DNA from: Candidatus Bipolaricaulota bacterium
GTDB taxonomy: Bacteria; Bipolaricaulota; Bipolaricaulia; Bipolaricaulales; Bipolaricaulaceae
Direction: 5' to 3'
Assembly: GCA_937921255.1 (NCBI GenBank)
Contig: CAKZSO010000014.1
Location: 1 to 59,663 of the forward strand
DNA: 59,663 nt
Positions 46,419-59,663 of this stretch are shown here, piece after piece. The notes under the pieces are model-generated. The model was not told the origin of the DNA. It ran no database searches and saw only the letters and a program-made list of their open reading frames with translations. Made by a program: the position numbers and the translations under genes. How positions within the stretch are numbered: position 1 is the stretch's first letter; the number at the start of each line of letters is the position of its first letter.

Positions 46419-47669
46419 CTATCGCTCCACGCCGTGCAAGATGAAGCCAGTCAGAAAGGGGAGCACCTCTTCGGCAGGCCGATCGGGATCCCCCCACAAC
46501 ACCCATCTCTGCCCGCTGAAGTGAGCAATTCCCAGGAGAGCGTAGGTGAGGGCCTCGGGATCACACCGGCGGATCTCGCCCCGGTCCATGGCCGCCGCCA
46601 GCCCGCGCGCGTACCCCTCGGCAAGCCGCGTGTAGTACCACCTTCCCACGCCCTCATCCACGAACTCCGCCTCGCGGACGATCCGGTACGCCCCAGGGTG
46701 GTCTCGGACCCACTTCAGGAACGACCGCAGCCCCAAGACCTCCGCTGTCCGCCGATCGCGGCACGAAGCCACAGCGAGGGTCTGACCCCGCCGGAACCCC
46801 CTGCTGATCTCCCGCACGAGCTCACTGAACACCGCGACCTTACTCGGGAAGTGAAGGTAGAACGTGCCCTGGCCCACACCGGCGAGGTAGGTGATCGTCG
46901 CGATCGTGGTCCGGTGGAACCCGACCTGGCCGAACGCCCGCTCCGATGCCCGCAGAAGGGCCCTCCGCGTCGCCTCCCCTCCTTCGGAATCCACCCGGGC
47001 GGGGTTTCCCGCTGTCCGCGACGCCACCTTCGGTGGCTCCGCCGCGTCGGCGAGGGGTTGGGTTCCCGTGAACCCCCTCCGAATGAGCTCCGCACCCCCG
47101 CGCCGCGCCTCCGGAGGCACGGCTCCCTGTCCCCACATCACGTACCGCAGCGCGAGGAAGAAGACCACCCCTAGGATACCGTACGCCACCACTTCAGGAT
47201 CGGCATCGCGAAAGTCGCCGGTCGCGATCCCTTCGCGAACGACCGCGACTAGCTCATCGCAGATGGCCCCGTAGAATCGCATCGGGATCTCGGACCGGAC
47301 GAACTCCGCTTCGCGGAACACCTGGAACGTCCCAGCGTTCTCCGTGATGTAGTCGAGGAGGGTGCCGTACGCCTGAAGGAGCTTCTGCGGGGGGGTGCGC
47401 GCGGCGGCGACGTCGGCCCGCAGCCGCCCGACGAGCCTCTCCTGAAGCCCCTCTACCAGGCGGAGGTAGATCTCCTCCTTGTTCGCGAAGTAGAGGTAGA
47501 ACGTGCCTTGGGCAATCCCCGCCCGGCGGCAGATCGCCGACACGGAGGCGAGTTCGTACCCACGCTCACGGAACACGTCCTCCGCGTTGCGCAGGATTCG
47601 GTCCAGCGTCTCCTGGCCGCGGGCAGTCCGTGGCAATCGAGTGGTCGCCTTTTCGCTCCGTGTCCCCAT
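46419..47669 (-). CDS. Fused tandem TetR-family regulator
   Basis: Two complete TetR units in one 416-aa protein. Unit 1 (about 18-200): HTH with ICRRAGIAQGTFYLYF, then a helical ligand domain. Unit 2 (about 230-416): ITYLAGVGQGTFYLHF, then a second ligand domain. The two ligand domains share FREAEFVRSE and VREAEFVDEG, so this looks like internal duplication. A single chain could bind both halves of an operator. SD GAGGAGG precedes the ATG. Probable regulator of the downstream liv operon. Confidence 0.9.
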   Translation of the reverse strand: MGTRSEKATTRLPRTARGQETLDRILRNAEDVFRERGYELASVSAICRRAGIAQGTFYLYFANKEEIYLRLVEGLQERLVGRLRADVAAARTPPQKLLQAYGTLLDYITENAGTFQVFREAEFVRSEIPMRFYGAICDELVAVVREGIATGDFRDADPEVVAYGILGVVFFLALRYVMWGQGAVPPEARRGGAELIRRGFTGTQPLADAAEPPKVASRTAGNPARVDSEGGEATRRALLRASERAFGQVGFHRTTIATITYLAGVGQGTFYLHFPSKVAVFSELVREISRGFRRGQTLAVASCRDRRTAEVLGLRSFLKWVRDHPGAYRIVREAEFVDEGVGRWYYTRLAEGYARGLAAAMDRGEIRRCDPEALTYALLGIAHFSGQRWVLWGDPDRPAEEVLPFLTGFILHGVER

Positions 47670-47821: not shown

Positions 47822-50695
47822 TCAAGGGACCACGCGTACCACCAGGCTCAACTCGTCGGTGAGGCCCGCGTCGTCGGTCACGACCAGGGTCACCAGGTAC
47901 ACCCCGGGCTCGGGGAACGTCCACTCCGCACGGACCCCCTCCGCATCGAGCGTCCGGTCCCCCGTGAAATCCCACTCGTAGCGCACGACCTTCCCCAGCG
48001 ATGGACCCGCGTCGAACCTCACCGCCTCGCCCGCCCGAGGCGAGGGGGGTGTCCAGGTGAAATCCGCCACCGGAGGTCGGTACACGATCACGACCGGCCG
48101 CGGCCTCTCCCAAATCCCAAACAGGACCTCCTCCGCAGCCCCCGGGGCTAGATTCACCTCCACCACAGCCGGGGTTGTGGGCTCATGCCGCTCGGGGAGC
48201 GTGTCCGCATCCACCCGAACCCTGTACTCCCCGGCGGGAAGGTCGGGGAACGAGAACGAGCCCGTCGGTGTCGTGAACGCCTCGGCCACCTCGGCCCCGC
48301 CCTGCTCCAGAACGATCCGCACCCGCCCCACGCCGGCCTCGCCCGCCGTGCGCGTCCCGCTTTGATCTCCGTCGCGGTACACCACGCCCGAGATCATCCC
48401 CACCCGCTCGCACGGGACGTGGACGATCGTCCGTCCGGCGAGGTCCACCGTGACCTCCGGGGGGAGCTCTGCACGGGACCGGAACCCTGCGGGCAGCCGT
48501 TCCACGGCAAGGGCATACGTGCCCGGTGGGAGGGGTGGGAACAGGAACCGGCCGTCCGCACTGCTGGCTACCCTCTTGCCATCCGCGACCAGAACGGCGT
48601 TGGCGATCCCCTCTTCTCCCAGGTCGAACCGCCCGTTCCCGTTATCGTCTGCGAACACCACCCCCTCCAGCCACCCCTTGGAGGGGAGGAAGGGTGGCGT
48701 CCACGCGAACGTGTAGTTGAACGAGATCGAGCCGAAGAGCGAGGTCACCTCGCCGAGGGGGCCCCACCTTGCCTCCACGCGCCCCGTTGCCGACAGCGCG
48801 GACGCCACGGCCACCGGGAGTACCACCCCCACGCTACCGCCATCGGTCCGGCCCCGGAACTCAACGGCGATGCCCGCCGGAGTGAGCAGGTCCAGGCGCA
48901 CCTCGTTCCCCGCGACGAGGAGCGCGCCCGTGTCGTCGTAGGTGGCGGCCTGGGTGAGGGCAAGGGTCGCCCTCGTCCGTCCGAGCGTAAGGCCGAACCG
49001 CTCCTCGTACTCCCCGGTCCAGCGGCGGGTGGGAGCAACGACGTCCTCTTCCCACCGCCACCGTCCGCCCAAACGCACAGTGAGGGGGGCTTCTCCGAGG
49101 TGGAGCGCCAGTCCCAAGGTGCCGATCCGGAGGTCCGGGTTCAAACCTGGGCCGAACCCTTGGCTTCGACGGAGGGAAGCCGTGCCCAGGAGGGCGACGA
49201 GCCCTCCCGGCGGCAGCCAATCCCAAGCCGCGAACAGGTCCGTTCTCACCACGGTCGGCACGACCGGGATCGCGAGGACGTTGTCCCTTTCCCAGCGCAC
49301 GGTGAACCGAAACGCGAGGGGGTCCACGGCCAGCTTTCCCGACAGATCCATCCCGGCGCGGTCGGCGCGCGGCCCCGGCACGTGTGGGCCCACAGCGTAC
49401 CCCGTGGCCCCCACCGAGAAATCCGACCCTGTGCCCACCAAGAACCCCATCAGGAAGCCCGCGTCGAGGTGGGAACCGGCAAGGGCAAGGCCTCCCTCGC
49501 CGTGGACGGTCAAGGACTCGTCGACCTGTCCCTTCACCCACAGGGTCCCTGCACGAACCGTGTCCACTCCCCGGGTCTCCCGGAACGCCAGCCCCAGTTC
49601 CCCCCAGGGTCCAATCCAGGCTCCGTGCAGGCCGAACCGGCCTTCGCCTCCCGCCCACCCCGTGAGGAACGCCGCCCGCCCGTAGTCCGTCCCGATCCCG
49701 GCTCCCATCCCGCTTGCCCCGAGCGAAAAGAGGAGCGCCGAGAGGTCGAGCCCCACCTCTCCTACCGTGACCCACGCCCACGGCCCGTCGTAGGAGAAGG
49801 CGAACCGCGACAGCCGGTACGGGGTCGGCTCCCACGGGCCGCTTGCGTGGACGACAAGTTCAACCGCGCCGTCCAGGACCCCACCTTTCCCCGTCAGCGT
49901 CAGCCGGGACAGCCGCCGGTCCGAGATCACGTCGTAGCCCAGCGCCAACCCCAGCTGCATGTCGAGTTCGGACAGGACGGTGCCGACGATCGCCCCCGGC
50001 CCCGGGGGAAGGACCGTAGTGATCCACCCCGTGCGCCCCTCCGCCCCGTCTTGAGATCGAACCACCGCCGTCAGGAAGTCGCGACCGGGCTCAGAGTCGG
50101 TCGGGATGGAGAGGACGATCCGCACGGTGCCCAGCTCTCCCGGACGCAGGCTGAACTCCCGAGGTTCGACCCGCACCGACCACCCCTGTGCCGAAGACGC
50201 TCCCACGGAGAACCGATCGAGCGCGTTCCCCCGGTTCACGACTACAAGCTCGTAGGTCACGGAATCCCCGGGTTGGCCCTCGCCCGACCGGGGGGGAAAG
50301 ATCTCCACCCTGGCCACGGCCAGGAGGCGGACCTTTGCCTCGGCGGCTGCCTCTCCTCCAGGCCAGGTCGCGGCCATACGGACCGCGTGCTCCCCGGCTT
50401 CAGCCTCCCGGGGCACAATGAGCGTCAGGAAGACCGCTTCTTCCTCCCCCGGGGCCAGGGAAAGCGCCGGCGGGAGTCCAAGGTGCTGCCAGCCCTCAGG
50501 AACACTGACACTGAGGGCGATCGCACTCGAGGTCTCTCCCGTGTTGCGCACCGCAAACACGTGGACCACCACCTCGCCGGGAGACACGGTGCGCGGTGGG
50601 GAGAGCACACCCACGGTCACCTCGGCCGCACCGCCCGTCCCCACAAGGATCGCCCCCGCAACGCAGGCGACAAGGCGCGCCCTCACCCAAGACAT
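47822..50695 (-). CDS. Large secreted protein: Ig-like domains, beta-barrel-like middle, SdrD-B repeats, PKD
   Basis: About 957 aa from ATG 50695 (signal peptide MSWVRARLVACVAGAILVGTG; open frame to 50770). Order: two NEW3-like Ig domains (about 25-230), a 450-residue Gly/aromatic-rich region of alternating strands resembling an outer-membrane barrel, two SdrD-B-like domains (GVVFADDNGNGRFDLGEEGI; GVVYRDGDQSGTRTAGEAGV), and a C-terminal PKD domain (YEWDFTGDRTLDAEG). It could be an usher-like or barrel-anchored surface protein. Last gene of the c-di-GMP-linked run. Confidence 0.75.
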   Translation of the reverse strand: MSWVRARLVACVAGAILVGTGGAAEVTVGVLSPPRTVSPGEVVVHVFAVRNTGETSSAIALSVSVPEGWQHLGLPPALSLAPGEEEAVFLTLIVPREAEAGEHAVRMAATWPGGEAAAEAKVRLLAVARVEIFPPRSGEGQPGDSVTYELVVVNRGNALDRFSVGASSAQGWSVRVEPREFSLRPGELGTVRIVLSIPTDSEPGRDFLTAVVRSQDGAEGRTGWITTVLPPGPGAIVGTVLSELDMQLGLALGYDVISDRRLSRLTLTGKGGVLDGAVELVVHASGPWEPTPYRLSRFAFSYDGPWAWVTVGEVGLDLSALLFSLGASGMGAGIGTDYGRAAFLTGWAGGEGRFGLHGAWIGPWGELGLAFRETRGVDTVRAGTLWVKGQVDESLTVHGEGGLALAGSHLDAGFLMGFLVGTGSDFSVGATGYAVGPHVPGPRADRAGMDLSGKLAVDPLAFRFTVRWERDNVLAIPVVPTVVRTDLFAAWDWLPPGGLVALLGTASLRRSQGFGPGLNPDLRIGTLGLALHLGEAPLTVRLGGRWRWEEDVVAPTRRWTGEYEERFGLTLGRTRATLALTQAATYDDTGALLVAGNEVRLDLLTPAGIAVEFRGRTDGGSVGVVLPVAVASALSATGRVEARWGPLGEVTSLFGSISFNYTFAWTPPFLPSKGWLEGVVFADDNGNGRFDLGEEGIANAVLVADGKRVASSADGRFLFPPLPPGTYALAVERLPAGFRSRAELPPEVTVDLAGRTIVHVPCERVGMISGVVYRDGDQSGTRTAGEAGVGRVRIVLEQGGAEVAEAFTTPTGSFSFPDLPAGEYRVRVDADTLPERHEPTTPAVVEVNLAPGAAEEVLFGIWERPRPVVIVYRPPVADFTWTPPSPRAGEAVRFDAGPSLGKVVRYEWDFTGDRTLDAEGVRAEWTFPEPGVYLVTLVVTDDAGLTDELSLVVRVVP

Positions 50696-50791
50696 TCCCA
50701 TGCCCGAGAAGGTAAGGGTGGGCCCTGGCAGCGGCGAGGAAAGGGGTCCGGGGGGCAGAGGAAGTTCCACACCCCGAACGGGCGACGGGAT

Positions 50792-51796
50792 CTACGGAGT
50801 ACGGGCGGCGAGGAGTCGCGCCAGCGCCTCCACATCGGCCTCATCCACGCGGCCGTCGTTGTTGAAGTCGAACGCCCGCGCGTTTCCCTGCACCGCCGGG
50901 CTCCTCAGCTGCTCGCGAAACAGGGCCACATCAGCCTCCGAGAAGACACCGTCCCCGTCTACATCCTCGTACAGGCCGTCGCCATCGAGGTCGCGCGGGA
51001 GGGCGCCCCCGGCAAGGGGAACGAGGGCCAACGGGCGCACCCGCAGGTACGCCTGACCCGCGAGGATCCCCTCTCCCCCGGCGTCCACCCGGGCGACGAC
51101 GAGGTACGTCCCCGGCTCAAGACAGAGCTCCGTCTCGGCGACAATCCACCGGGTCGCACCCGGAAGGCAGGGGACAGGGGCGGGCGCGACGCGCGCCAGG
51201 CGCTCTCCCCAAGCATCGTAGACCTGGACCTCGACCCGGACCTCGCGCAGGTTCACGAGCCCCACGTTGGCGAACTCCACCACCAGCCAGAGCGGGTTCA
51301 GGCCGCGGAACTCGATCTTCCGCACCTCCCCTTCGTTGGGCCCCGACCCCACCGTCGCGTAGACTTTGACCCCGATCCGGCGGGCGACCATCACCGTCGT
51401 CCCCCCGTGGTCCACCGGCCGCGGCTCGCCATGGACGAACACGACACCCCAATAGGTCCCCACCGCTGCGCCCGCGGGGACGTGGAGCGACCCCCTCACC
51501 TCCCGAGTCTCCCCCGGGCCCAAGGAGAAGGAGGAAGGGGCCACTGAGAGCCACGCGGCAAGCGAGCGCGGGATCGTCCCCGGGGGGTAGAACCGATTCC
51601 CCCCCATCACATCGCGATCCCAGTCCCCGACGTAGACGGAGAACGTCTCTGCAACCGCCGTCTCGTTGCGGGCGATGAACGAGAACGTGTAGACCCCGCC
51701 CGGAGCGACGTCAAGGTCGACCTCGAGGAGGTTGACCTCGAGCCCCAGGCCCGTGACGCCCAGGAGAAGGATGGCGATCCAGAGGAACTTGCGCAT
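50792..51796 (-). CDS. Secreted two-Ig-domain (DUF916/chaperone-like) protein with dockerin-like tail
   Basis: A 334-aa secreted protein: signal MRKFLWIAILLLGVTGLGLE, first Ig-like domain with RNETAVAETFSVYVGDW and LSVAPSSFSLGPGETREV, a second beta domain (about 150-255), and a C-terminal pair of calcium loops (DLDGDGLYEDVDGDGVFSEAD; FDFNNDGRVDEAD, shown in part) like type I dockerin. The first two domains recall DUF916/DUF3324 of WxL clusters or PapD-type chaperones; this is a fold-style resemblance only. ATG set by a TATAAT box 7 nt upstream. Confidence 0.7.
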   Translation of the reverse strand: MRKFLWIAILLLGVTGLGLEVNLLEVDLDVAPGGVYTFSFIARNETAVAETFSVYVGDWDRDVMGGNRFYPPGTIPRSLAAWLSVAPSSFSLGPGETREVRGSLHVPAGAAVGTYWGVVFVHGEPRPVDHGGTTVMVARRIGVKVYATVGSGPNEGEVRKIEFRGLNPLWLVVEFANVGLVNLREVRVEVQVYDAWGERLARVAPAPVPCLPGATRWIVAETELCLEPGTYLVVARVDAGGEGILAGQAYLRVRPLALVPLAGGALPRDLDGDGLYEDVDGDGVFSEADVALFREQLRSPAVQGNARAFDFNNDGRVDEADVEALARLLAARTP

Positions 51797-51803
51797 CGGG
51801 GGG

Positions 51804-51809
51804 ATTATA
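51804..51809 (-). promoter_or_regulatory. Consensus -10 box, leaderless arrangement
   Basis: Minus-strand TATAAT, 7 nt before the ATG at 51796, just after the preceding gene's stop. No SD and only a weak -35, so the last two genes may have an independent promoter. Confidence 0.6.
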
Positions 51810-51820
51810 CGCCCCACGGC

Positions 51821-52747
51821 CTACGGTGCGGTCAGCGTGTACGTGAAGCGAAGCTCGTACGTGCCGGGGACGGTGGTGTCGTAGTCCACCCGAAGCCGCA
51901 GGGCGACCTCGAGCCACAGGCCGGTGCCCGCCGGCCCCCCGGCCACCCTCTGCGACCCAAGGGACAGCCCCACGTACGTCGTCTGGGGGCCAGAGATACC
52001 AGGGCCGAAGGCGCCCACCCGCCACTCCAGGTGCGAGGCCGGCTTCCCGGGGTAGGCCTCAGAACCAACGTAGGCCCACGTCCCCCCGTCCGCGGCCACG
52101 TACAGGGACCACGCGGTGGCGCTGGATACCGTTACCCGCTGCGCGGGGGAGACCTCCCGGTAGCCCGCATCGTAGTCGGCGAGGGTGAGCACGCCAAGGT
52201 CCACGAGCTGCGGGGTGACCGTCAGCGCCTGGGTGATCCCTTCTCGGTAGTGCACCCGCACCGCCACCCAGTCCAGCTGGGCGTAGCCCAGGGCACGGAC
52301 CTCAACCCACAGCACCCCGTCCGCAAGGTCTGCTGTCGTCCAACTCCGCCCCCAAAGGTCGCTGCTGCCGCCCAGGACGTAGTCCTGCCAGCGCACGGGG
52401 TAGAGCCCCGTCGCAGCGTAGCCCGTGTTCGTCCAGCTGATTCCCCCGTCGCCGGACAGCTCGACCCCCAGGGCTCCCGCCTGCGCCGGGGCCCTCCGCG
52501 CCCGGAGGAGGACCTCGATCCCCACGATTTCGCTTCCCGCCGGCACGGCAGCCCCAAAACCCCCGTAGCGGTGCACCGCGTTCGCCCCGACCGCGAAGGG
52601 CCCTCCGGGAGCATACGCCGCGGGGCCATTGGAAAACTGCCCCTGATCGACAGACGGGCTGAGCCAGCCCGTGCTCTGGGCCAGGCCCCCAGACCCCAAG
52701 AGCAGTAACGTCAGCAACAGTACCAGTTGGTACATCGCCATGTTCAT
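51821..52747 (-). CDS. Secreted beta-rich protein, pilin/WxL-like C-terminal domain
   Basis: About 308 aa with signal MNMAMYQLVLLLTLLLLGSGGLAQ (open frame to 52804). The N-terminal half (about 22-160) is a separate beta domain with LSGDGGISWTNTGY. The C-terminal half matches the previous gene's product: LGVLTLADYDAG and W.LYVAADGGTW, ending in FTYTLTAP. So it is a modular relative of the 170-aa protein. Family not recognised with certainty. Confidence 0.7.
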   Translation of the reverse strand: MNMAMYQLVLLLTLLLLGSGGLAQSTGWLSPSVDQGQFSNGPAAYAPGGPFAVGANAVHRYGGFGAAVPAGSEIVGIEVLLRARRAPAQAGALGVELSGDGGISWTNTGYAATGLYPVRWQDYVLGGSSDLWGRSWTTADLADGVLWVEVRALGYAQLDWVAVRVHYREGITQALTVTPQLVDLGVLTLADYDAGYREVSPAQRVTVSSATAWSLYVAADGGTWAYVGSEAYPGKPASHLEWRVGAFGPGISGPQTTYVGLSLGSQRVAGGPAGTGLWLEVALRLRVDYDTTVPGTYELRFTYTLTAP

Positions 52748-52754
52748 CCGTCTT

Positions 52755-52801
52755 CCGAAGAGAAGAAGGGCAGCCCGGATTCTTCTCGGACCCGGGCCGC
52801 C
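52755..52801 (-). terminator. Attenuator-like hairpin between two surface-protein genes
   Basis: Minus strand: GGCGGCCCGG pairs with CCGGGCTGCC (10 bp, one G-U in RNA; 52801-52769) and is followed by the pyrimidine-rich CTTCTTCTCTTC. It could lower expression of the genes after the 170-aa protein. Confidence 0.55.
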
Positions 52802-52814
52802 CATGAACCCCTCA

Positions 52815-53327
52815 TCATGGGGCGGTGAGCGTGTAGGTGAACCCCAACCTGTAGTCGCCGGCCGGGTCGTTCTCCCAGCTCACGAGGACCTCGAAGTCCA
52901 TGGAGAGCTGGATGTTCCCGCCCCTCGTGCCGGCGGCCACCTGGGTTGCCCCCGTCGTGAGCCCGGTGAACGTGCTCGCGTACGAGGACACGCGGCCATC
53001 GGAGGTCGCCGCGCGGAACAGAAGGTCGGTGGACGGCTTCGCCCACGGCCCGGTCCACGTGGCGGTGTCGGCGGCCACGTTCAGGATCCAGTTCCGGTTG
53101 CTCCAGATCTGGACACCCTGGGCGGACAGAACCTGCTTCTGCCCAGCATCGTAGTCCGCCTCGGTGAGTGCCCCGAAGTCGATCGTGCTCGTCGAGAGGG
53201 AGAGCCGGATCAACGTCGGCACCGTGAACTGCGCCACCGAGCCCTGCGTCACCTGCGCCATCCCTGCCACGCCCACAAGCAGCCCCAAAGCCAACATGCC
53301 AACTGTAAGCGTACGAACCTTCATCAT
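52815..53327 (-). CDS. Small secreted beta protein, likely fibre or surface subunit
   Basis: A 170-aa secreted protein: signal MMKVRTLTVGMLALGLLVGVAGMA, then one beta-rich domain starting QFTVPTLIRLSLS, with FGALTEADYDAGQ, SNRNWILNVAADTATW, and the C-terminus FTYTLTAP. Size, export and single domain suit a polymerised or cell-wall-attached subunit. SD GGAGGAG and ATG at 53327 lie downstream of a c-di-GMP-I riboswitch and inside a pairing element. A second ATG is at 53324. Confidence 0.75.
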   Translation of the reverse strand: MMKVRTLTVGMLALGLLVGVAGMAQVTQGSVAQFTVPTLIRLSLSTSTIDFGALTEADYDAGQKQVLSAQGVQIWSNRNWILNVAADTATWTGPWAKPSTDLLFRAATSDGRVSSYASTFTGLTTGATQVAAGTRGGNIQLSMDFEVLVSWENDPAGDYRLGFTYTLTAP

Positions 53328-53334
53328 CACTTCT

Positions 53335-53378
53335 CCTCCAAGGATAGTTAGATTGGGTAATCCGTTTAACCTTGGAGG
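53335..53378 (-). promoter_or_regulatory. SD-sequestering pairing element of the second riboswitch
   Basis: CCTCCAAGG (53378-53370), directly after the aptamer, is perfectly complementary to CCTTGGAGG (53343-53335), which holds the SD of the 170-aa protein; the loop is 26 nt. This suggests translational control. Confidence 0.65.
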
Positions 53379-53380
53379 CG

Positions 53381-53456
53381 TTTCGGCAACCCAGCCATCT
53401 CCCCACAAAAGAGAGATCTGTGGTTTTGCGTCCCCGGGTCGCCCCGGGTTTGCCCG
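53381..53456 (-). ncRNA. Cyclic di-GMP-I (GEMM-I) riboswitch 2
   Basis: Minus strand. P1 5' GGGCAAACCC pairs with 3' GGGTTGCC; P2 CCCGGG-GCGA-CCCGGG carries a GNRA loop; then the conserved GGACGCAAA junction, and P3 with ATCTC/GAGAT leading into TGGCTGGG. This matches the GEMM-I core. It precedes the secreted-protein run ending at 47822. Confidence 0.92.
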
Positions 53457-53617
53457 TTCGATCACCTCGTGTTCCCACAAGAAACCGTACTCCTGCACTC
53501 GCGGATCTCCCGGTCGGACAACCACCTCCCCTCGGCCCCAGGATACGGGGCACGCCCGCAGGCTCTCGGGCACCGTCCACTTCCCCACGTCGCGTCCGTC
53601 CATCGGCGTGGGCACGT

Positions 53618-54091
53618 CTATCCCTCGACGGCGTAGATCAGGGTGAGCAGGCGCTCACCGCTCCACCCAGCCTCGCCCAGGTTCACCCGGTAGTCGAGCA
53701 CGATCTCGTGCACACCCGGTCGACCCGTGGCGAGAACCAGCCCGTCCGGCCCCACCGGCCGGTATTCTCCACGCCCGAGGCGTACCTCCACAACCCCCGG
53801 GAAGGAGAGGTCTGAGGAGCGTACGACGAGCGTCCACGGCACGTTGCTGCGCACGAGGAGGGTAACTGCCTGCCGCAGCTCGATCGGTCCCGAACGATCG
53901 GGCACCGGAGCACGGATCTCCACCGCGACTGGGATCTCCCGCCCGGAGTCCTTCGCGCCCAGAACGGAGAGGCGACTGAGCGCGGGAATGGTGACCGTAG
54001 CTTGAGCCCCTAGAGCGGTCGACGTCGCCCGCCCGACGACAGTCCCCGCTGTCAGCCCGACCATCACCAGCAGCACTGCTTTCCTGACCAT
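53618..54091 (-). CDS. Small secreted beta protein under riboswitch 1
   Basis: A 157-aa secreted protein: signal MVRKAVLLVMVGLTAGTVVG, then a beta domain with TVTIPALSRLSVLG, VRSNVPWTLVVRSSD and an aliphatic C-terminus (LLTLIYAVEG). It looks like a distant relative of the 170-aa subunit. The ATG at 54091 is only a few nt after the aptamer; an open frame reaching 54142 runs through the aptamer and is rejected. No SD is visible. Confidence 0.75.
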   Translation of the reverse strand: MVRKAVLLVMVGLTAGTVVGRATSTALGAQATVTIPALSRLSVLGAKDSGREIPVAVEIRAPVPDRSGPIELRQAVTLLVRSNVPWTLVVRSSDLSFPGVVEVRLGRGEYRPVGPDGLVLATGRPGVHEIVLDYRVNLGEAGWSGERLLTLIYAVEG

Positions 54092-54093
54092 GC

Positions 54094-54161
54094 TTCGGCA
54101 ACCCAGCCATCCCTGAGGGACCTGTAGGCTTTGCGTCCCCACGTTGCCGTGGGTTTGCCCT
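54094..54161 (-). ncRNA. Cyclic di-GMP-I (GEMM-I) riboswitch 1
   Basis: Minus strand. P1 GGGCAAACCC with 3' GGGTTGCC, P2 CCACG-GCAA-CGTGG (GNRA loop), conserved GGGACGCAAAGCC, and a short P3 (TCCC-TCA-GGGA) leading into TGGCTGGG. The aptamer ends about 2 nt before the ATG at 54091, leaving almost no separate expression platform. Confidence 0.94.
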
Positions 54162-54232
54162 TATCGGACGGTCGAGGTCAGTTGCCCGGCGACACCCCCT
54201 TCCCCGCACCGCGGGCGGTCCGAGTTACTTGC

Positions 54233-54260
54233 AGTATATACGGATATAAACCACCGTCAA
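54233..54260 (-). promoter_or_regulatory. Promoter of riboswitch 1 and the surface-protein run
   Basis: Minus-strand TTGACG (54260-54255), 16-nt spacer, TATACT (54238-54233), in an AT-rich patch that stands out from the surrounding GC-rich DNA. The leader to the aptamer is about 65 nt. Confidence 0.75.
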
Positions 54261-55325: not shown

Positions 55326-56339
55326 TCAGCCCGAGACTCCCCGCCCCACCGTCAACACGAAGTACATCGCGCCCATCCACCCCGCCACAATCCCCAGCGC
55401 GAGCCACCGAGAGAGGCCTAGCTTCCCTCGCGCGCGGAGAACAAGGAACAGCGGGCCGAGCGCCATCAAGGCAAGTGCCCCCAGCCCCGCCACAAGGTGC
55501 GAGCGGTCGAGCACGGTGAAGATCGGCTTGGCGTAGAGGAGATCCGATAGCCCCAGGACGAGCACGTTGAACGCGCAGCTCCCGTAGACGTTTCCGAGGG
55601 CCATCTCCTTTGATCCCAGCCGCAGCGCGCCCCACGTCACGCTCGTCTCGGGCATTGTGGTCACGACCGCCACAGCCAGCACGCCCATGAAGCTCCCCGA
55701 GATCCCGAAGATCTCCGCCAGCCGATCCGCGCTCGCCGCGAGAAGGGGTGCCGCCACAAGGACCCCTCCTGCAGCCAATCCGAACATGACCCACGCTCGT
55801 CTCGCCGACGGGCGAGAGGCATCGGATGAAGCCCTCCCATGATCCGGCTCAAGCTGGACTTCCACCGCGCGAGCTCGGTACACGGCCATCATCCCCAGGA
55901 CGTACCCCCCGAGGAGGAGGATCGTCCCCAGGCTCACCGGACCAAGGTTCCCCGGCCCTTCCAGCCCCACCAAGACGGTTACGACAACTGTCAGAGCGAG
56001 GGCCGTGGCCACGAGCAGCCGTTGGTCGCGCGTCGCCGGGCGGATCGCCACCTTCGGGAACAGGCTGACGAGGACGACAAGGACAACGATGTTGAGCATG
56101 TTGGCCCCGAGGATGTTCCCACCGGCAAGGGCAGGGGCATCGAGGCGAACCGCGGAGAGGTTCGTCACGAGCTCGGGGAGCGAGGTCGCGATGGCAAGGA
56201 GGATCGTCCCCACCCACAACCGACCGAGCCCGGTCGCCTCGGCGAGGTGATCACCCGCCTTAGACAAACTGAGGCCGCTCCGCACGACCACCGCCGCGCT
56301 GAGGAGAAACAGCCCTGCCCAGCCTAGAGCCTGAGTCAC
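55326..56339 (-). CDS. CaCA-family Na+(K+)/Ca2+ exchanger
   Basis: Inner-membrane cation antiporter of 337 aa with about 10 segments and two inverted alpha repeats: LLAIATSLPELVTNLSAV with GNILGANMLNI, and VVTTMPETSVTWGALRLG with GNVYGSCAFNVLVLG. The acidic residues that bind Ca2+ in the repeats (E of PEL and PET) are kept. A charged loop separates the halves (about 162-184). GTG start. Tail-to-tail with rimI, 6 nt apart. Confidence 0.9.
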   Translation of the reverse strand: MTQALGWAGLFLLSAAVVVRSGLSLSKAGDHLAEATGLGRLWVGTILLAIATSLPELVTNLSAVRLDAPALAGGNILGANMLNIVVLVVLVSLFPKVAIRPATRDQRLLVATALALTVVVTVLVGLEGPGNLGPVSLGTILLLGGYVLGMMAVYRARAVEVQLEPDHGRASSDASRPSARRAWVMFGLAAGGVLVAAPLLAASADRLAEIFGISGSFMGVLAVAVVTTMPETSVTWGALRLGSKEMALGNVYGSCAFNVLVLGLSDLLYAKPIFTVLDRSHLVAGLGALALMALGPLFLVLRARGKLGLSRWLALGIVAGWMGAMYFVLTVGRGVSG

Positions 56340-56467: not shown

Positions 56468-59400
56468 CTAGCGCCCGGCGACGGCCTCCCGGACCTCGAA
56501 TACCAGAACCCGGAACAGGGTGCTCCCGAGGGAGATCCACAGCCGGTAGGTTCCCGGCGGGAGGTCCGCCGTGGCAACCTGGAACTGGTAGTTGTCCGTC
56601 GGTTCGATCCGCCTCCCCACGAGCACGTGCTGCTCGAGGTCAGGCGGGAGAACCGCCCCTGCCCCGCCCGCCGCGTCGTCAGCGCGCGTCAACACGGCGT
56701 GGGGAAGGCAGGGTGTATCGTCACAGGCAGTTGGAGCGACGACCGCCACCGTGACCACGTCGCCCCTCTCCACCACCTGAGCTGCCTGGTCATCGGCAGA
56801 TCGAAGGAGAACGGGCTCGTTCGTCGTGCGTGCCGTGGCCACAAGGCACACCTCATCCGTATCAAGACCATTGATCACGATGTACTGGTTGGAGTCCCAG
56901 TTCCCGTCAAGGTCTGGAAGGGACGGGTCCACTCGCTCCATCGTCGCAAATGGCAGCGCCCCGTGCAAACCGTAGCCCACAGCCCACCCATCGCGGTCGG
57001 AGTTGTCGGCGTTCGCCGTGTCCACGATGTTCCCCGCAGGGTCCACAAGCTCCAGCACCTCCCCCAGGTCGGACAGTTCAAGAGTAAACGGCAGATACGC
57101 CAGATCCGTGGGGAACTCTGTCGGATCCACCTCCGGATACGCCCACAGGAGGAACTGCTCGTTCACCGCCCGTGGGGTGGCCACGAGGGGAATCCCGTCG
57201 CGGTCCGTGCCATACGTGAGGGTTCCTGAGTTCGCCTGCCAATTGTGCTCCGCATCGCGGGCAAACGGGTTCACCCGCTCCATCGTCGCGTACGGATGAG
57301 CGTTACCCAGACCGTAACCAGTGGCCCAACCGGGCCGCCCGAGGCGTTCCGCGTTCGCCGTGTCCACCACTGTGCCCAGCGGATCCACGAGCTCCATGAC
57401 CTCGCCGCGCGGATCGAGGGCCACAGTGTAGATGAGATCGGCAGGTATATTCCTCACCACGTCGTCACTCCCCCGCTCGAGGAGGTACGTTGCGCACGGG
57501 GCGATCGTCCCGCGGAGTTCGACCACCTTCCACTCCCGCTCCCCGGCTGTGGTCGGCTGGGTAAGACGCCAGCGGAGGGTCCATCCCGTGAGGTCCACCG
57601 CGTTTTCCGTAATGTTGGTAAGCTCGATCCACTGGTCGTTCGGGCTTGCCGCGGTCCCGCCCCACGCGATTTCCGTGATCACGACCGGCCCCGTCTCCTC
57701 GTAGATGAGGTCGGCCTCGATGTCGCTCACCACGTCGTCGGTGCGGCGCTCCATGAGGTAGAACCCGAAGGGGTCGATCACCCCGCGGAGATCCACAACC
57801 TTCACGTACTGCTCCAGCACGTGCCCCGGCTGCTTGCGCCGCCAGCGGAGGGTCCATCCGGTGAGGTCGATCGGTTCGCCAAACGAGCTGTAGAGCTCGA
57901 TCCACTCGTGATTCGGGTCTGCCTTGGTGCCGCCCCACGCAATCTCGTTGATCACGATCCGCGGTCCCAATGCACCGCCTCCACCGGCGATCTCCTCCCC
58001 GCAGTCCAAAACCGTGATCCGAACCATTCCCACCGCAAACGCGCCGGTGGGATCGGTGACGGTGTAGGCGATGAAGTCCGTGCCGAGGAAACCAAGCTGC
58101 GGCACGTACACCACGTCCACCAACGCGCTGTGCGGCGCGCTGTATGTAACAGCACTCAGGCTCCCGCTCACCGCACCGTAGGTCGGCGCCCCCTGGATCG
58201 CGAATGCCAGCGGATGCGACGCTGAGTTCGCGGGGTTCACGTCGGGGTCGCTGCCACGCAGGGAGAAGGCGAGGGGCGTGTTCCGACAGGTCACGAACGA
58301 GAGCGTCTCTGCCGTGGGGGGCTCGTTACTGCGCACCCAGTTCTTGACGGCATCCGGCCCGTTCACACCCCCGGATCCCGTCGTTCGGCGCAGGAGAAGC
58401 CCGGCAACGGTCACATCCGCCGTCGCCCGGATGGCGACACCACCCGGGTTCGACGAGAACAGAGTCACGGAAGCCTGCCCGCTGCTCGTTGTCACCGCTG
58501 CCGGCGTAACGAACGTAGCTCCAGCCGTGTTGGTAAGAAGCGTGAACACGACCGGCGTGCCATTTGAAGCTGGTACCCAGCCAGCGCCGGCGTTGACCTC
58601 CACCAGCGCGGTCACGGTATGGCCTGTGGCTACTGGATTGACCGAACTCAACGGGGTCACGCTGATCCGCGCATCTACGTAGGTTTTCGCGGCGTTGCTG
58701 CCATTCCCAGGCGTGCCCGTCACACGGACAAACGTCCCGGTGCCGAATAGGTCCGCTGCCGCCTGAATCAGGACCGTTCCCGGCGTCGAAGAGACGATCT
58801 GCGCCGTCGCCTGACCCGCGCTGTTGGTGACCGAGGTGTTGACCCCGCCGACAAAGATCGCGGCTCCACCTACGATGGAGAACGTGACTCCCACGCCAGG
58901 CGCTGGGAACCACGCGAACCCGTCGGTTGTCGTTTCAACCAGCGCAACCATCGTATGAGGATCCCCCACCTCATTCGTGGCGGACAACGGACTCAGGTTG
59001 ATCCGTCCCTGCACGTAGGTCTTCCGCGCGGGCACGGTGCTTCCGCCTAGGCCGTCCGTCGTCCGCACAACCTGCGTCCCGCCGGGGAACGTCATCGTCA
59101 CCGTCGGGGTTGCCAAGAACGCACCCGGCGCTGTGCTATTGATCGTCAGGTTCCACGTTGCGCTCATCCCGTCCGGGGCCACCGTAGGTCCGCTCAAGCT
59201 CTGGATCCCCGGCGTCGGCGCCACGGTGTAGCTGAGGGCCCACGAACTGGGCGCCGCACCTTCCGCGTACGCGGTAATCACAAACGTGTGCGGGTCGCCC
59301 ACCGCGTTTGTCGCCTGTCCTGGCGTGATGGCGATGTAGCCATCTATCCCAAAGTAGTGGCTCGGATCGGTGTCGCTCACCGTCTGCCCCTGGTACGTCG

Positions 59401-59663
59401 TCTCGGCCTTCCCTACGTTCGCGTACTGCCCAGGAACGGCCGTACCCGTCTTCGTCAGCGTCGCGCTCGCTCCCACCGCCAGGCTCGGGATCGTCCCGAT
59501 CGCTCCCACCTTGTCGTCGGTCACGACCACGTTCGAAAGCGGCACGTTCCCCGTGTTCGTCACCTCGTACGTCCACGTCACCGTCGACCCCACCACCACC
59601 ACCGGCCCGGTCGGCGTGTCCGCATCGTCCCCGTTCGTCTTCTTCTCCAGCACCAGCCCCGGC
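56468..59663 (-). CDS. Large surface protein with DUF11-like, Ig-like and lamin-tail domains (5' end outside window)
   Basis: At least 1064 aa; the N-terminus is beyond the window. Visible in order: a DUF11/DUF7507-like repeat (TWTYEVTNTGNVPLSN), several Big/Ig-like repeats sharing the phrase VGDPHT and KTYVxxRI, a tandem cadherin-like domain (FLGTDFIAYTVTDPTG), then two lamin-tail domains (INEIAWGGTKADPNHEWIEL and ITEIAWGGTAASPNDQWIEL) each ending in DVV..I.ADLIY, and a C-terminal beta domain. No anchor motif is seen. Likely extracellular; role unknown. Confidence 0.85.
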   Translation of the reverse strand, partial: PGLVLEKKTNGDDADTPTGPVVVVGSTVTWTYEVTNTGNVPLSNVVVTDDKVGAIGTIPSLAVGASATLTKTGTAVPGQYANVGKAETTYQGQTVSDTDPSHYFGIDGYIAITPGQATNAVGDPHTFVITAYAEGAAPSSWALSYTVAPTPGIQSLSGPTVAPDGMSATWNLTINSTAPGAFLATPTVTMTFPGGTQVVRTTDGLGGSTVPARKTYVQGRINLSPLSATNEVGDPHTMVALVETTTDGFAWFPAPGVGVTFSIVGGAAIFVGGVNTSVTNSAGQATAQIVSSTPGTVLIQAAADLFGTGTFVRVTGTPGNGSNAAKTYVDARISVTPLSSVNPVATGHTVTALVEVNAGAGWVPASNGTPVVFTLLTNTAGATFVTPAAVTTSSGQASVTLFSSNPGGVAIRATADVTVAGLLLRRTTGSGGVNGPDAVKNWVRSNEPPTAETLSFVTCRNTPLAFSLRGSDPDVNPANSASHPLAFAIQGAPTYGAVSGSLSAVTYSAPHSALVDVVYVPQLGFLGTDFIAYTVTDPTGAFAVGMVRITVLDCGEEIAGGGGALGPRIVINEIAWGGTKADPNHEWIELYSSFGEPIDLTGWTLRWRRKQPGHVLEQYVKVVDLRGVIDPFGFYLMERRTDDVVSDIEADLIYEETGPVVITEIAWGGTAASPNDQWIELTNITENAVDLTGWTLRWRLTQPTTAGEREWKVVELRGTIAPCATYLLERGSDDVVRNIPADLIYTVALDPRGEVMELVDPLGTVVDTANAERLGRPGWATGYGLGNAHPYATMERVNPFARDAEHNWQANSGTLTYGTDRDGIPLVATPRAVNEQFLLWAYPEVDPTEFPTDLAYLPFTLELSDLGEVLELVDPAGNIVDTANADNSDRDGWAVGYGLHGALPFATMERVDPSLPDLDGNWDSNQYIVINGLDTDEVCLVATARTTNEPVLLRSADDQAAQVVERGDVVTVAVVAPTACDDTPCLPHAVLTRADDAAGGAGAVLPPDLEQHVLVGRRIEPTDNYQFQVATADLPPGTYRLWISLGSTLFRVLVFEVREAVAGR

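Follow-up and report, generated by a model that had tools for sequence, protein, structure and literature searches.

A cyclic di-GMP riboswitch-led gene cluster of Candidatus Bipolaricaulota as a candidate envelope assembly system

What might five secreted proteins, encoded together behind two cyclic di-GMP (c-di-GMP) riboswitches, build at the cell envelope of Candidatus Bipolaricaulota? The DNA stretch that raises this question, hereafter the window, comprises 59,663 nucleotides and corresponds to contig 14 of an 86% complete assembly of 1.29 Mb (GCA_937921255.1, contig CAKZSO010000014.1). Within it, the open reading frame list and Rfam place five minus-strand genes, here designated A-B-C-D-E, downstream of two GEMM-I aptamers. 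A closed Acetothermia genome was described as lacking flagellar, fimbrial, pilus and surface adhesin genes, and its envelope type was left open (PMC6092417). The operon represents a candidate surface structure for this little-studied phylum, as well as a concrete c-di-GMP target in it. In our judgement the chances are about even that A to E constitute a c-di-GMP-controlled envelope assembly system. The initial annotation had proposed a single surface assembly system composed of subunits, a chaperone-like protein and a usher- or anchor-like barrel; its architecture stands, whereas membership in the chaperone-usher and WxL families does not, and because the defining family tests failed we treat the system as a variant of these rather than as a member of either.

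Composition and conservation of the operon

Genes A (54091-53618, 157 aa) and B (53327-52815, 170 aa, or 169 aa if the second ATG is used) encode small secreted beta subunits, and gene C (52747-51821, 308 aa) combines an N-terminal domain with a C-terminal B-like domain. They are followed by gene D (51796-50792, 334 aa), whose product carries two immunoglobulin (Ig)-like domains resembling WxLIP and PapD-type chaperones plus a dockerin, and by gene E (from about 50695-50701 to 47822, 957-959 aa), encoding two NEW3 domains, a predicted 26-strand barrel, two SdrD_B-like domains and a PKD domain. All five proteins display a signal-peptide-like N-terminus, as judged by eye. The paired aptamers, the two related small proteins of 157 and 170 aa and their two-domain relative had all been described from the letters of the sequence, and each was recovered here; overlooked at that stage were the dockerin with which D ends, the NEW3 domains at the start of E, and three more GEMM-I aptamers on a neighbouring contig.

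Gene order was computed, with genes in relatives called by a simple coding-score script. The order A-B-C-D-E is kept in genomes of the same genus and family, and D-E occurs with other small subunits in more distant families; hence the conservation of gene order that had been suggested as a check holds across genus and family and, for D-E, reaches further. A search with the E profile gave matches in 100 of 100 phylum genomes, a count inflated by the common NEW3, SdrD_B and PKD domains, and about half of these genomes match over most of its 956 positions. Matches of the D profile in GTDB genomes came mostly from Candidatus Bipolaricaulota or Acetothermia records, the others being one Fraserbacteria, one record labelled Thermotoga sp., a few uncultured bacteria and one Gemmataceae match that spans dockerin residues only. 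A further set of D-like proteins, about 275 aa long, was also observed away from GEMM-I aptamers in four relatives (L130, L133, L135 and L137), in some cases with a small secreted partner.

Folds of protein E, protein D and the subunits

The presence of Omp85 in the source genome and in 39 of the 40 related genomes used for family searches supports an outer membrane and a diderm envelope, in which protein E could reside. In Pfam, this protein matches NPCBM_assoc/NEW3 (two N-terminal NEW3 domains), SdrD_B and PKD (47852-48076), and between these flanks its residues 238-672 (435 residues, 48686-49990) were predicted, from an input of 20 sequences, to form an outer-membrane beta-barrel of 26 consecutive antiparallel strands. 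The mean predicted local distance difference test score (pLDDT) was 94.1 and the predicted template modelling score (pTM) 0.81, and the model contains neither helices nor plug-sized loops. The barrel-like middle with SdrD-B and PKD domains read by the initial annotation is therefore borne out by Pfam matches and fold prediction, and the strand number surpasses the 20 that it had named as support for its proposal. Being even, this number would place both ends of E in the periplasm. In a Foldseek search against the PDB, the ushers FimD and PapC ranked first by E-value (8e-8), and other structural matches included LptD and OprD-like porins. The barrel showed no sequence relatives in Pfam or the PDB, where its profile produced chance matches only, to retinol-binding protein. 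As modelled, the middle of E is a barrel that recalls ushers in its size and in the domains around it, but is not specifically an usher.

This breadth of matches also bears on a simpler explanation, namely that A to E are unrelated secreted proteins with only their riboswitches and neighbourhood in common, E being a porin or receptor and D an adhesin-like Ig protein. The barrel matches do include BtuB, OprD-like porins and LptD, and the Ig-like structural matches discussed below are broad; however, genes that keep a strict order across many genera, short C-D-E gaps and the linkage of D to E in distant families speak against such a chance assemblage, which we consider improbable. The near-universal E-profile matches, together with a weak NCBIfam match between the NEW3 region of E and a putative S-layer protein, invite a second explanation, in which E would be a major outer-membrane spacer that ties this membrane to peptidoglycan or to a matrix in the periplasm, within a toga- or prostheca-like outer sheath, and the small proteins would form the matrix at high c-di-GMP. 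One described species of the phylum has prosthecae and possibly a Thermotoga-like envelope (PMC6092417), but the domain matches that inflate the 100-genome count take away part of this argument, and the conserved D and subunits, the riboswitches, and the linked protease and repeat protein suit regulated appendages better. We consider a sheath of this kind quite improbable.

Turning to the subunits, B has a homologue in the C-terminal half of C (profile E 8e-58) and a more distant one in A. The family has the motif V.SN..W.L.V in common (SN..W.L.V being conserved in A), with a near-invariant first W-x-L motif and a second motif that reads Y-T-L. Searches of Pfam, NCBIfam and PDB sequences returned nothing significant for A, B or C, including no other fimbrial pilin family in Pfam, and the subunit-family profile matched the TLP-1/TLP-2 entries of the PDB (16 chains) weakly (E 0.08).

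For protein D, the fold came from a joint model of C and D, which are in frame with each other; reading the intervening TAG as Q made a single read-through chain, modelled with pLDDT 89.1 and pTM 0.51. The top three entries of the PDB structural search were Enterococcus faecium WxLIP (E 7e-12 to 3e-11), and the chaperones CfaA, CupB2, FimC, CsuC and Caf1M were within the top 50 (E about 1e-8). We assigned the WxLIP match to D because the matches extend over 235-256 columns (given as lengths, not as lists of residues) and because the D profile independently matches EfmWxLIP1 over D residues 26-236 (E 0.029). At the family level, PF06030 (WxLIP_PGBD) matched 6 of 22 D proteins below its cut-off (best E 0.0023) and PapD_N weakly matched three of them (best E 0.016). 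The suggested resemblance of D to DUF916/DUF3324 or PapD-type proteins is supported by the structural search, with WxLIP first and chaperones among the leading matches, and PF06030 matches stay below cut-off. D lacks the C-terminal transmembrane helix of WxLIP and has, in its place, either a dockerin or no extra domain. In the window, this type I dockerin (Pfam, E 5.5e-9) occupies residues 276-329 (50810-50971), and every one of the 22 D proteins in a broad alignment carried it. A calcium/sodium antiporter-like gene lies near the operon that encodes this calcium-binding dockerin (55326-56339, minus strand), and such a gene is also found near the operon in two relatives (L040 and L076).

The fold of D introduces the most serious competing explanation, a WxL-like surface-anchoring platform, as opposed to a secretion machine, in which E would be an outer-membrane anchor, D and the small proteins would be held on E or on peptidoglycan, and the N-terminal domain of C and a linked repeat protein would bind outside targets. 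The first rank of WxLIP among structural matches to the C-D model, a cluster make-up that mirrors WxL loci and the dockerin of D as a docking module are all consistent with it. That riboswitches would govern both surface proteins and a protease here also recalls Clostridioides difficile, whose c-di-GMP riboswitches act on a colonisation factor and on further surface genes. On the other hand, the PF13731 WxL domain is absent, the second W-x-L motif reads Y-T-L, and two divergent small subunits, each led by an aptamer, together with a barrel bearing probable periplasmic domains at both ends suit export better. We regard anchoring as rather unlikely.

Several results weigh against A to E as an assembly system related to the known ones. 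BtuB scores nearly as well as the ushers against the E barrel, MtrB, the barrel of the Mtr complex, superposes on it better (TM-score 0.60), and the E barrel has no plug and 26 strands against 24 in ushers. Across the 40 related genomes, no above-cut-off match was obtained for Usher (PF00577, 0/40 even with E up to 1), WxL (PF13731), SCPU (PF05229) or PF06030/DUF916 (0/40). The C-D model, at pTM 0.51, allows no interface or domain arrangement to be read, and ciliary and other Ig proteins as well as Vibrio cholerae RbmA rank between WxLIP and the chaperones. No cohesin partner for the dockerin was found in the source genome, itself 86% complete, and D relatives of about 260 aa exist that carry no dockerin; the dockerin thus marks one branch of D rather than the family at large. 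Finally, some loci have D and subunits with no E in the stretch read. These points stand beside the conserved architecture, the predicted barrel and the fold similarities, all of which are computed results.

Riboswitch leaders and the GEMM-I island

Both window aptamers belong to the c-di-GMP-I(-GGC) type of GEMM-I and score above the Rfam gathering threshold (E about 1e-12): aptamer 1 (54168-54093, minus strand, 63.5 bits) ends 1 nt short of the ATG of A, and aptamer 2 (53463-53381, minus strand, 62.6 bits) lies upstream of B. A possible sigma-70-like promoter (TTGACG-16-TATACT, 10/12 match, 54233-54260, minus strand) precedes aptamer 1; it is one of two such sites found where 0.4 were expected, a weak excess. 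We found no convincing intrinsic terminator after either aptamer.

In the B leader, a competing hairpin (53335-53378, minus strand) pairs an anti-Shine-Dalgarno arm, CCTCCAAGG (53378-53370), with CCTTGGAGG (53343-53335) and holds the ribosome binding site of B; its folding energy is -19.2 kcal/mol (z -3.9), and it is conserved among leaders, being bulged or shifted in six species. The alternative is an extension of the P1 helix (53375-53468, minus strand), formed by GAGGTG (53468-53463), a 5' strand that mimics a Shine-Dalgarno sequence, and CGCCTC (53380-53375). In all 17 B leaders compared, G(A/G)GGTG, the 5' strand of P1, is fully complementary to C(A/G)CC(T/C)C just past the aptamer (100% of cells paired versus 41-56% in slid controls), and an A-U to G-C change occurs in 7/17 sequences, which come from related genomes and thus represent fewer independent events. 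Because the 3' strand of P1 is the anti-Shine-Dalgarno arm of the sequestering hairpin, a ligand-stabilised P1 would free the ribosome binding site, and the B leader is therefore a predicted translational ON switch.

The A leader is organized differently. Aptamers of this group end 1-2 bases upstream of the start codon, with no Shine-Dalgarno sequence seen by eye, and in the window an outer P1-type helix (54084-54181, minus strand) can form between CTGACC (54181-54176) and GGTCAG (54089-54084), the latter beginning at the G of the ATG of A, with GACC/GGTC alternatives also available. Complementary flanks of varying sequence occur in most of 14 distinct A leaders (CTGACC/GGTCAG, CCTGGCC/GGCCAGG, CAGCC/GGCTG), with an individual shuffle p below 0.06 in 10 of 14 and weak pairing in the other four. 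Since the start region of A falls inside a ligand-favoured helix, ligand binding would hide it, and we tentatively describe this leader as an OFF switch; the polarity of both switches is what we infer from these pairings.

Ligand choice (c-di-GMP versus cyclic GMP-AMP) is influenced by the base before GGCAAACC. This base is G in both window aptamers and A or C in the B-gene leaders of several relatives, and the riboswitch ligand may accordingly vary between species, to judge from this position.

The two leaders form part of a larger group. The window end (59523-59663) overlaps the end of contig C48 exactly, over 141 bases, which places the three remaining GEMM-I aptamers of the genome next to the window, and all five are consequently found in one island; in a relative assembled as a single contig (G009), all five lie within 12.5 kb on one strand. 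The aptamers of C48 precede genes for a secreted subtilase (L035:16618-17691), whose aptamer extends into the start codon, for a small protein with ribbon-helix-helix (RHH)-like and MshE-type domains (L035:17878-18234), and for a large secreted DUF7507/LTD repeat protein, part of which lies in the window (56468-59653, minus strand) and which continues on C48. The contig ends split this one large protein between the window and C48.

The MshE-type domain of the small protein matches NF053729 (E 3.5e-21, 74.7 bits against a cut-off of 38), and its PDB matches are PilF, PilB and MshE. The protein occurs in 33 of 40 relatives, where GEMM-I is often its neighbour, and its gene is directly upstream of D in two of them (L097, 4245-4568; L100, 7522-7863), making it, on sequence grounds, a candidate c-di-GMP-responsive DNA-binding regulator. 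Other signalling genes accompany D elsewhere: in L103 (6066-14730) and L104 it stands beside a GGDEF-EAL protein, a GGDEF protein, a NosD-like/OpuAC protein and a subtilase, and a sigma factor, of sigma-70 type by family search, is encoded just upstream of D in L092 (2890-3534) and L095 (6423-7193). Genes of similar size to these sigma factors were also seen upstream of subunits or D in L131, L132 and L135. Separately, the window encodes a regulator of the TetR family whose single chain holds two TetR_N domains (46419-47669, minus strand), adjoining a branched-chain amino-acid-type ATP-binding cassette transporter operon.

Proposed assembly route and comparison with known systems

Combining these elements, we infer export, complex formation and the building of a fibre or coat along the following route. 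A, B and C would be small beta-sandwich subunits that are exported into the periplasm and bound there by D, a periplasmic carrier with a WxLIP/chaperone-like fold whose dockerin may dock on another component. E would reside in the outer membrane with five beta-sandwich domains (two NEW3, two SdrD_B-like and PKD) facing the periplasm, comparable to the N-terminal and C-terminal domains of ushers, and would take the D-subunit complexes, the subunits then exiting to, or becoming anchored at, the cell surface. High c-di-GMP would increase translation of B through the P1/anti-Shine-Dalgarno switch, and A may be turned down by the ligand-stabilised helix, so that the mix of subunits could shift with the c-di-GMP level. 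Further targets of this signal would be the secreted subtilase, the large repeat protein and the RHH-like/MshE-domain regulator. A bolder proposal is that this is a separate class of outer-membrane assembly pathway, near-universal in Bipolaricaulota, that joins a WxLIP/PapD-like chaperone to a plug-less 26-strand barrel and swaps A for B through tandem riboswitches of opposite sign. We hold this to be unlikely; if true, WxL clusters and chaperone-usher systems would join one wider family of surface assembly based on two-Ig proteins. The riboswitch designs, for their part, yield precise and testable predictions.

Among surface systems regulated in this manner, the C. difficile regulon likewise coordinates surface proteins through c-di-GMP riboswitches, with a protease gene included here as well (PMC6200980, PMC6447587), although the protein families are different and all five GEMM-I aptamers of the present genome lie in one island. 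The candidate regulator resembles CdbA of Myxococcus xanthus, a ribbon-helix-helix c-di-GMP receptor (PMC7156744), in being an RHH-type DNA-binding protein with predicted c-di-GMP binding; it differs in that binding is predicted via an MshE/PilF-type domain to which the RHH-like part is linked, and in that its gene is itself GEMM-I-led. TasA-type donor-strand filaments, a tentative lead that goes with the weak TLP-1/TLP-2 match, also employ small secreted beta subunits encoded in an operon, without a significant sequence relation to the subunit family described here.

Chaperone-usher pili, including the archaic Csu type, have in common with the operon several small related subunits and, by predicted fold, a large barrel flanked on both sides by beta-sandwich domains, for which ushers are the best, though not specific, matches by E-value; the chaperone-like D would correspond to their two-Ig chaperone. 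In contrast to these pili, Usher and SCPU give no above-cut-off match, PapD_N matches are weak, the barrel has 26 strands and no plug, D bears a dockerin, and E bears SdrD_B and PKD domains. The WxL clusters of Firmicutes comprise a small WxL protein, a large WxL protein and WxLIP, the last with the arrangement DUF916-DUF3324-transmembrane helix, and WxL proteins are described as almost wholly restricted to Lactobacillales and Bacillales (PMC10599100). The present operon departs from them in occurring in an Omp85-bearing phylum, in giving no PF13731 match, in its Y-T-L second motif, in the dockerin or absence of any extra domain where the transmembrane helix would be, in the added 26-strand barrel and in riboswitch control. 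It nevertheless parallels them in encoding small, large and interacting proteins together (A-B-C-D), with A and B as small beta proteins, C as a larger protein with the same end domain, a near-invariant W-x-L in the first subunit motif, and a two-Ig D whose closest PDB fold is WxLIP. The operon may thereby offer a bridge between the WxL clusters of Gram-positive bacteria and the chaperone-usher systems of Gram-negative bacteria.

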